Positions 12,421 to 61,446 of a DNA stretch of 64,000 nt are shown piece after piece. The stretch's first letter is position 1. Every line of letters begins with the position of its first letter. The notes beneath the pieces were generated by a model that saw nothing but the letters and a program-made list of their open reading frames with translations, made no database searches and was not told the DNA's origin. The stretch spans positions 1 through 64,000 of the forward strand of contig CALUQN010000006.1 of NCBI GenBank assembly GCA_944322945.1, read 5' to 3'. This DNA is from Candidatus Gastranaerophilales bacterium (GTDB taxonomy: Bacteria; Cyanobacteriota; Vampirovibrionia; Gastranaerophilales; Gastranaerophilaceae). The translations under genes and the position numbers were made by a program.

Positions 12421-12540
12421 CATAACTAACGGGTATGGTTGCACATCAAAAGCTCTTTATGATAAAGATTATTTTAAAAATCTGCCCAAATAGTAGGATA
12501 AGTTGAACAATTAACATTTTTATATCAGAAGCATAACAAT

Positions 12541-12571
12541 AGGGTGGGCAAAGCGCAAGCGTGCCCACGCG
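12541..12571 (+). repeat. REP palindrome, left of RAYT
   Basis: agggtgggcaaagcgcaagc then gtgcccacgcg. GTGGGCA and TGCCCAC pair across a GC-rich loop, giving a typical REP hairpin. Confidence 0.85.
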
Positions 12572-12577
12572 AAATTA

Positions 12578-12586
12578 TGTTATAAT
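12578..12586 (+). promoter_or_regulatory. Extended -10 of RAYT
   Basis: TGTTATAAT ends 7 bases before the ATG at 12594, next to the REP. A leaderless mRNA is predicted. Confidence 0.5.
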
Positions 12587-12593
12587 TATGTAT

Positions 12594-13124
12594 ATGTCAG
12601 AGTATAGAAGATTTTATCATAATGATTACAAATATATATTTCTTACCATCGTTACAAACAATCGGTTGCCAATATTGATTGAAAACATTGATTTATTACG
12701 TTCGGCTTTTAAATATGCAATAAAAAAACATCCTTGCAAAATTTTTGCCTGTAGTATTTTAAAAGACCATATACATATTATTTTAGAATTAGATAATATC
12801 AGTGATACTGCTGAAATAATCAGACTAATGAAATATTACTTTTCCAGAAAATTTACCAATGCAGTGACACCATCAGAGAGTAAATTAAGAAAACGTGAAA
12901 AAGGAATTTGGCAAAGAAGATTTTGGGCACATACTATTATAAATGAAAAAGATTTATACCGGCATATTGATTATATCCATTATAATTCATATAAACATTA
13001 TGATATTTCTCCGCAAAATTGGATTTATTCAACTTTCAATAAATTTGTTAATGATGGATATTACTCAGAAGGTTGGTGTAACTTTAATGATGTAAATAAT
13101 ATCGAAAATTTGAATTTGGAATAA
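12594..13124 (+). CDS. REP-associated tyrosine transposase (RAYT, Y1/HUH)
   Basis: 176 residues of the IS200-like Y1 transposase family. The HUH motif is HIHIILE (in CSILKDHIHIILE, ~64), followed by the conserved GIWQRRFWAHTI (~116) and the catalytic tyrosine segment YRHIDYIHYNSYKHY (~135-149). The ATG at 12594 (MSEYRRFYHNDYKYIFL) matches RAYT N-termini; a GTG at 12561 lies inside the REP. RAYTs cleave and join single-stranded REP DNA and are thought to spread REPs. The gene appears intact. Confidence 0.92.
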   Translation: MSEYRRFYHNDYKYIFLTIVTNNRLPILIENIDLLRSAFKYAIKKHPCKIFACSILKDHIHIILELDNISDTAEIIRLMKYYFSRKFTNAVTPSESKLRKREKGIWQRRFWAHTIINEKDLYRHIDYIHYNSYKHYDISPQNWIYSTFNKFVNDGYYSEGWCNFNDVNNIENLNLE

Positions 13125-13128
13125 TTTG

Positions 13129-13155
13129 GTGGGCACGCTACGCTTTGCCCACCCT
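13129..13155 (-). repeat. REP palindrome, right of RAYT (inverted)
   Basis: The reverse complement reads agggtgggcaaagcgtagcg then tgcccac, differing from the left copy by one substitution and one missing base in the loop. Confidence 0.85.
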
Positions 13156-42732: not shown

Positions 42733-43086
42733 GAGTTTTATATAGTAAATTCCGCATATACTAGCTAAAATTGTCACCCTGAACTTGTTTGATTACTTTT
42801 TCCAAAATCTTTGATTTTGTGAAAAATGTCCGGTTTTCCGCAGAGGCTTGTCAACATGAAACATCTGCTTTCCGGTGGTAAGATCCCGAAATAAATTCGG
42901 GATGACATATTACTTTTTGTCACCCTGAACTTGTTTAAAACTCCTTCCCCAACTTGGGGAAGGTAGGGATGGGGGACAGCAGGGTCTTGTCTGTGACAAG
43001 CTTCCGAAACACGGAGGTCATTCCGACGTTCGGATTGACCTTATGCTTATCTTTTAATAATATTTGGTGGAAACATATATATGAGT
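42733..43086 (-). repeat. Dispersed intergenic repeat B, copy 2 (inverted, with insertion)
   Basis: Its two ends match 29734-29940 in reverse complement; about 150 bp of extra sequence lies between. The extra part holds two hairpins, ATCCCGAA-n5-TTCGGGAT and CTTCCCCAA/TTGGGGAAG. The whole 503-bp gap between genes (42713-43215) consists of this repeat, the SNF2 promoter and its leader. Confidence 0.72.
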
Positions 43087-46404: not shown

Positions 46405-46447
46405 AAACCCTCACCCCCGGCCCCTCTCCCAGAGGTAGAGGGGAGAG
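46405..46447 (+). repeat. CCTCTCCC-type palindromic repeat, left of DUF559
   Basis: Begins aaaccctcacccccggcccc; contains CCTCTCCC-AGAGGTA-GAGGGGAGAG. About 40 of 43 positions match the reverse complement of the right copy. A diverged copy is at 61380-61446. Confidence 0.88.
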
Positions 46448-46448
46448 T

Positions 46449-46811
46449 TTACTTGATATTGTTATACGTATTTACTATATACTCTAACACATTATCTATA
46501 TTATTAAAAATCTCATTATTATAGATTCTTATTACAGTGAATCCCAGCTTTTTTAAAATATTTGTCCTTACTTCATCATATTTAATATTTTGATTTTCAG
46601 TATGCTGCGAGCCATCCAACTCTATTATTATTTTTTTATCAGCTATTAAAAAATCTACAATATATTTTCCTATCGGAACCTGTCTGCGTACTTTTATATT
46701 ATTTAATCTACGATTACGTAAATAAAACCATAATGTGCTTTCAGCATCACTTTGGTTGTTTCTTAATGCTTTTGCATTCTGTAATGATTTTTTCAAATAA
46801 TATCTTTTCAC
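46449..46811 (-). CDS. DUF559-domain endonuclease-like protein
   Basis: 120 residues, Vsr/restriction-endonuclease-like fold. N-terminal LRNNQSDAESTLWFYLRNRRL; core YIVDFLIADKKIIIELDGSQH with the acidic pair (VDF, ELDG) that would bind metal; then RTNILKKLGFTVIRIYNNEI. GTG start; a GATAAT-like -10 ends 8 bases upstream, no Shine-Dalgarno. Often predicted as a nuclease; no experimental role is known to me. It is flanked closely by inverted repeats. Confidence 0.88.
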   Translation of the reverse strand: MKRYYLKKSLQNAKALRNNQSDAESTLWFYLRNRRLNNIKVRRQVPIGKYIVDFLIADKKIIIELDGSQHTENQNIKYDEVRTNILKKLGFTVIRIYNNEIFNNIDNVLEYIVNTYNNIK

Positions 46812-46942
46812 AATACAAAATTATCATAAATATTTACGCCCCTCTACTTTGTTGCGGCAACTTTGAACCAGTAAAATAGACGCCGTGTTGAGCAAGACGG
46901 TATGCAGGCACATGTTAACAGCGTGGGTAAGAATTACTATCG

Positions 46943-46984
46943 CTCTCCCCTCTACCTCTGGGAGAGGGGCAGGGGTGAGGGTTT
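46943..46984 (-). repeat. CCTCTCCC-type palindromic repeat, right of DUF559 (inverted)
   Basis: The reverse complement begins aaaccctcacccctgcccct and matches the left copy apart from one or two positions and one missing base. Confidence 0.88.
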
Positions 46985-61379: not shown

Positions 61380-61446
61380 CCCTCACCCGAATTTTTAACG
61401 CTCGTTCCGCGCTTTAAAATTCTACCCTCTCCCAAAGGTAGAGGGT
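61380..61446. repeat. Diverged CCTCTCCC-type repeat between nagA and murE
   Basis: ccctcaccc, a 30-base insertion (gaatttttaacgctcgttcc...), then ccctctcccaaaggtagagg. Same family as the repeats flanking DUF559. Supplies the Shine-Dalgarno of nagA. Confidence 0.7.

Follow-up and report, generated by a model that had tools for sequence, protein, structure and literature searches.

The stretch of DNA analyzed here (64,000 nucleotides from Candidatus Gastranaerophilales bacterium, hereafter the window) contains a gene for a small DUF559 nuclease enclosed by two inverted palindromes. This arrangement raises the question of whether the 580-bp unit, composed of the gene and the two inverted repeats, is mobile, and what part the nuclease might play in its movement. 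The observations described below suggest that the unit is probably a mobile element, in which one gene is bordered by two inverted BoxC/PIT repeats and the nuclease either disperses BoxC or homes to it.

The two repeats form a single pair, one arm being longer by 1 base. The left end occupies positions 46405-46447 (minus strand) and the right end, its inverted copy, positions 46943-46984 (plus strand). The arms are 97% identical in inverted orientation over 33 nt (46415-46447 versus 46943-46975), and their 27-nt core has two exact occurrences in the window and none in 100 dinucleotide shuffles. The inverted repeats reported in the preliminary description are thus present at these positions, and their core is unique to the pair. 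The DUF559 gene (46449-46811, minus strand) is intact, has a GTG start and encodes 120 amino acids, with the conserved motif VDF..ELDGSQH and a match to PF04480 at E 2e-38. Its stop codon, already noted to lie close to the left repeat, is 1 nt away from it. In the spacer between the gene start and the right end (46812-46942) the promoter signal is not above chance; three promoter-like sites were found where 3.0 were expected, and the compact promoter formerly ascribed to the gene has to be dropped. Two solo copies of the repeat, which had been placed at 61380-61446 and about 42945, proved to be real. Both have the build of the element ends, a hairpin and a third G-rich strand. The gene-free copy at 42943-42974 (plus strand) reads CCTTCCCC..GGGGAAGG with TAGGGATGGGG, and the diverged copy at 61380-61446 (minus strand) has an extra hairpin between the main hairpin and the third strand (fold z -4.4).

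The palindrome was at first thought to be unnamed. Judged by its sequence, it belongs to a known repeat, variously called BoxC, the PIT element or the TM_ECO intrastrand triplex repeat (PMC4666352). BoxC/PIT repeats were already known in the 1990s; there are 23 copies in E. coli K-12, and the repeat has been reported from more than 260 genomes (PMC4666352). BoxC is built as CCCTCNCCC N3-6 GGGNGAGGG N3 GGGNGAGGG, that is, a pyrimidine arm, a purine arm and a third purine strand, and the E. coli sequence has been found to form a triplex in vitro as a single strand (PMC4666352). Both window ends have this build, in which a pyrimidine and a purine arm form the hairpin and the third purine strand follows in mirror order, and they are variants of the E. 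coli BoxC consensus without an exact match to it. The hairpin arms of the left end are accompanied by a third strand rich in G, which reads GGGTGAGGG on the minus strand and lies outermost; the third strand of the right end is outermost too. A scan of the whole window for the triplex motif found both element ends, the copy at 42943 and one tRNA-like false match, and the same scan gave zero matches on 20 local shuffles of the window. In several variants (L060, L067, L069, L150, L080 and the window copy at 61380-61446) a second hairpin stands in place of the loop that separates the hairpin from the third strand. That strand is retained in them, suggesting that the three-armed build as such is important.

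The unit resembles the REPtron (RAYT/REP/REPIN/BIME) in that a single gene lies between inverted palindromes and that there are numerous solo copies, doublets, and copies inside some genes (PMC2817692, PMC3116915, PMC3733652). Unlike the REPtron, which has a HUH tyrosine transposase, it carries a Vsr-like nuclease, and its palindrome has a third strand and lacks the GTAG tag. The gene of the unit is PF04480, and no HUH/Y1 transposase (PF01797) was found in the unit; likewise, no GTAG/CGTC-tagged palindrome was found at either window end or at the ends in relatives. As both the transposase and the tag are absent, the unit is not a member of the RAYT/REP family. The own genome has two Y1_Tnp genes, both away from the DUF559 unit, and a RAYT-like Y1_Tnp gene of the window (12561-13124) is flanked by GGTGGGCA..TGCCCACC palindromes (12528-13153). 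The RAYT palindrome differs from the DUF559 repeat, and the two are therefore distinct systems. The proposal that a second gene-plus-palindrome mobile unit exists beside the RAYT holds in the tests run, apart from the supposed novelty of the palindrome and the promoter, which did not survive. By analogy, the best reading is that the unit works like RAYT/REP with an unrelated enzyme.

The AlphaFold model of the DUF559 protein (pLDDT 88) has NGO0050 (3hrl, the best structural match), I-Bth0305I (3r3p) and Vsr as its nearest solved structures. The similarity to I-Bth0305I is seen in sequence (E 1.2e-4) as well as in the predicted fold (E 1.4e-5, TM 0.68), and on these grounds DUF559 is a Vsr/I-Bth0305I-like nuclease. 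I-Bth0305I is reportedly a homing endonuclease of the EDxHD type (Taylor et al. 2011). It is related to DUF559 in sequence and fold, whereas the DUF559 gene lies outside an intron or intein and has its own inverted repeats. A gene-free allele of the window site is present in a sister species. YcjD of E. coli and NGO0050 (PDB 3hrl) belong to the same protein family as the window protein. YcjD was treated as a member of the PD-(D/E)XK superfamily in 2005, and a Thermosynechococcus paper has already grouped a DUF559 gene with EDxHD homing endonucleases. We know of no role for DUF559/YcjD, for which a solved homolog exists; in the literature found, neither a function nor a link to a repeat has been proposed for YcjD or NGO0050. 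The PADLOC search for anti-phage defence genes gave weak matches only.

The own genome contains six strong DUF559 genes, all of which are enclosed by inverted G/C-rich palindromes of one build. Matching of the ends was examined more widely by aligning the left flank of each DUF559 locus to the reverse complement of its right flank. At 65 loci of the same family the median left-right score was 20.5, whereas mismatched loci gave 10.5 and shuffles 9, and scores of at least 18 were reached by 58%, 6.5% and 0%, respectively. Named genomes belonging to many phyla (Proteobacteria, Nitrospirota, Spirochaetes, Chloroflexota, Planctomycetes and candidate phyla) supplied 80 loci, which are a non-random set of best matches to the alignment and include one high score due to an N-run artefact (L135); their median was 24 versus 10.5. 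These medians indicate that the ends at each locus copy each other, yet differ from locus to locus.

A scanner for the triplex build found a motif within 300 bp of the gene at 107 of 135 DUF559 loci. The counts per side and orientation were 57, 77, 48 and 65, compared with 1.7 expected from the remaining sequence of the same loci, and relative to other parts of these contigs the motif is enriched about 30-45-fold next to DUF559. At 18 of the 28 motif-free loci an inverted repeat reaches a score of 18 or more, so that 125 of the 135 loci have one or the other and 10 have neither a motif nor a strong inverted repeat. The expectation that DUF559 genes would be flanked by such palindromes beyond chance in related genomes is thus borne out across phyla, far over background. 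The unit is far more widespread than had been supposed, and it is often found in frame inside genes. The DUF559 genes of two Azospirillum replicons and of P. aeruginosa PaLo11 have no BoxC ends; the link between DUF559 and BoxC is therefore not universal.

The orientation of the repeats varies. The two nearest motifs both point inward at 51 loci and both outward at 12, and 7 loci are mixed. In a 55-locus clade outside Gastranaerophilales, 46 of the 47 typed loci are inward, with the third strand beside the gene, and one is outward. The repeats are thus inward in most phyla and often outward in Gastranaerophilales, unlike a fixed transposon end. A fixed orientation of that kind was looked for and rejected, since inward, outward and mixed loci all occur. 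A conventional transposon with terminal inverted repeats (IS) was rejected as well, because the ends differ among loci and face either way and a transposase domain is lacking. The element of S. meliloti Ak57 looks young. Its arms are 114 nt long and 96% identical, full repeat doublets are present on each side, as in REPINs, and two related Sinorhizobium records seem to keep its gene.

Comparison with sister species, which had been proposed as a check for empty sites, revealed both empty and remnant sites. In G001 the window site is empty and consists of a repeat-free gap of 141 nt, and in G002 the repeat pair is retained, the gene is absent and another repeat is enclosed. The latter (L251) belongs to the GTCACCCTGAACTTGTTTCAGGGTC .. 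TCCGAAACACGGAGGTCA family, which takes the place of DUF559 between the repeat ends there and is recurrent in the window (42920-43040). The element in PriA is present in four of the family genomes searched (G000, G002, G030 and G046); it is inserted in the linker before the Walker A motif, and this linker is short in most other genomes. In alaS of the own genome a solo BoxC forms an exact 42-nt in-frame insert that is missing from G001, G002 and G003. No clean target-site duplication could be read, the sister sites being too diverged.

Forty-four of the 135 DUF559 loci lie inside open frames of at least 300 amino acids. In the own genome, three of the six DUF559 genes are in frame inside hosts that we take, from reading their sequences, to be PriA (909-aa frame), IspE (608 aa) and HydE (472 aa), IspE being backed by Pfam. 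Peptides such as PHPDPLPQGERE and PLTLNPSPAGRGK are translated repeats. Among the hosts that Pfam recognized are Mfd and a leucyl-type class I tRNA synthetase, both in one Rickettsiales bacterium, as well as MetH, HsdM, a GHMP kinase (IspE), UvrD-like helicases, M14 peptidases and a protein resembling HsdS. In ispE, DUF559 is found in each of the four species of the genus, and in the own genome this 608-aa IspE (L003) has several nested and duplicated repeat segments around DUF559.

The repeats sit close to the DUF559 domain on both sides. In 13 in-frame insertions Pfam recognized no domains other than those of the DUF559 type and of the hosts, with no intein domain around DUF559, and an intein- or intron-borne endonuclease was rejected on the absence of a splicing domain from these Pfam results. 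The embedded domains retain the conserved D, E, D and H residues. Their dN/dS values are 0.12 for the priA and hydE pairs and 0.04 for an ispE pair, and the embedded nuclease is therefore under purifying selection. Insertions in essential genes would survive because several frames of the repeat are free of stop codons and the linkers in which it lands are tolerant. The palindromic elements of Rickettsia (Ogata, Claverie; cited in PMC3733652) likewise are palindromes situated in frame in protein genes. Many in-frame insertions described here differ from these in carrying an intact nuclease. To our knowledge, no enzyme gene is present inside the Rickettsia elements.

The in-frame copies also bear on another view of the palindromes, namely, that they are transcription terminators or mRNA-protecting hairpins that border the gene by chance. 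A weak terminator-like site does overlap the left end. This view is nevertheless very improbable, because the same pairs occur within translated frames, where a terminator would be harmful, and because PIT elements had neither promoter nor terminator activity in published tests (reported in PMC4666352).

DUF559-positive genomes hold far more BoxC copies than negative ones. The strict motif pattern was searched in 97 genomes of the family and 146 genomes of the phylum, and the reversed pattern, used as a control, gave zero matches in all of them. Among the phylum genomes, at least three BoxC copies were present in 38 of 72 DUF559-positive and 3 of 74 DUF559-negative genomes (odds ratio 26, p 1e-11), and at least ten copies in 18 and 2 of them, respectively; the higher thresholds matter, as two copies may be the element's own ends. 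When permuted within genera, the observed overlap was reached in 0 of 20,000 trials. G030 has 64 copies, and one end of its single DUF559 element is identical to solo copies; several of these solos share their context and may have spread with the duplication of a pilin gene. DUF559 ends resemble the solos of their own genome with a mean rank of 2.8 of 12 (6.5 expected), although these are not always the best match. Many copies were also found without DUF559 in G048 (44), G132 (30) and G154 (12), and the genome of G084 is only 57% complete. In such genomes the gene may have been lost or another agent may be at work. A partial DUF559 of G048 was discarded as a weak match that, on reading, looks like a true Vsr gene.

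These BoxC-rich genomes without DUF559, together with the presence of RAYT in the own genome and the occurrence of DUF559/Vsr folds in restriction and repair, would fit a nuclease (e.g. a restriction or repair gene) that was caught as a passenger between BoxC repeats moved by RAYT, by replication slippage or in some other way. We regard this as improbable. The RAYT here has another palindrome, the association spans phyla, and no other gene family was found between close inverted BoxC pairs: among six pairs 250-1200 bp apart, chosen among the matches listed, five enclose DUF559 and one has no recognized gene. In G199 (L346, G199:C85:15000-17000) repeat copies about 825 bp apart occur in the same orientation at several places and are possibly a gene-carrying composite unit without DUF559.

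A more serious possibility, although we still favor it less than dispersal or homing by the unit's own nuclease taken together, is that the movement is homing only. The nuclease would cut a pre-existing solo BoxC, and the gene would be copied in by double-strand-break repair with BoxC as the homology arms, the repeats themselves having spread by other means. The homing endonuclease I-Bth0305I is the nearest characterized relative of the nuclease, there are more solo copies than gene copies, and the ends match within a locus and differ between loci, as expected for a gene that enters a locus-specific repeat or doublet; the full doublets on both sides of the S. meliloti element agree with this as well. 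Such homing leaves unexplained that many-copy genomes are nearly always DUF559-positive, and it does not account for the insertions in the priA linker, where gene-less relatives show no solo repeat. Sequence alone does not tell this homing variant from transposition.

For the mobile element in the broader sense, a possible course of events can be outlined. The DUF559 protein would recognize BoxC as a hairpin, triplex or duplex and break the DNA there or close by. The flanked gene would then be copied to a new place by repair or replication, and the repeat alone, acting in trans, may be copied in the same way. Solo BoxC would thus be non-autonomous offspring, as REPs are of RAYTs. From the sequence data we infer that cutting of BoxC structures by the nuclease is what drives their copying or movement. 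The recurrence of the pairing across phyla, in many cases in frame within housekeeping genes, makes this enzyme a strong candidate for the hitherto missing agent behind the spread of BoxC. A more general proposal is that DUF559 and BoxC/PIT constitute one trans-phylum mobile class, in which a single Vsr-like nuclease recognizes a triplex-forming palindrome, moves itself and the solos, and invades essential genes in frame without splicing; the chances for and against this proposal appear evenly balanced.

The repeat in E. coli is the same, but here it flanks DUF559 genes and sits in frame within genes, whereas E. coli BoxC has been described as always intergenic and without a linked gene (PMC4666352). 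In the 2015 survey the flanking genes had no consensus function, a mobility function was never found nearby, and neither ycjD nor any endonuclease was mentioned (PMC4666352). The DUF559 gene of K-12, ycjD (1351407-1351760), has as its neighbor BoxC copy no. 9 in the list of that paper (1351239-1351204), and half a BoxC copy abuts the end of ycjD. No link between DUF559 and BoxC was found in the open-access literature searched; an older paywalled note is possible. The ycjD locus was rejected as a clean empty-site test, because E. coli genomes that lack ycjD hold the eefRABCD operon there (PMC12817139), and the site is thus replaced and not empty. The site can be compared between K-12 (L158) and SMS-3-5 (L169), the eefRABCD efflux operon being found in other lineages (PMC12817139), and at least 80% of the ycjD region is retained in 3333 of 5426 genomes.

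The link between DUF559 and BoxC makes both questions, the role of the nuclease and the spread of the repeat, testable in E. coli K-12, which is home to ycjD and to its 23 BoxC copies. If the proposal is true, the few agents known to spread bacterial palindromes would be joined by a further enzyme class, essential genes would be open to an intein-like invasion without splicing, and many odd peptides in bacterial proteins (such as PHPNPLPQGERE) would be accounted for.

Numerous solo BoxC copies are found in frame in prepilin-like leaders of G030 (L269-L272, L274-L278, L281-L284) and G015 (L302, L305, L307). They sit directly before AFTLAEVLITLGIIG in these leaders, as do other repeats that are read as CHAELVSGSH-like peptides. 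The prepilin leader, which is expected to be removed by prepilin peptidase, seems to be a place where repeats can land safely.
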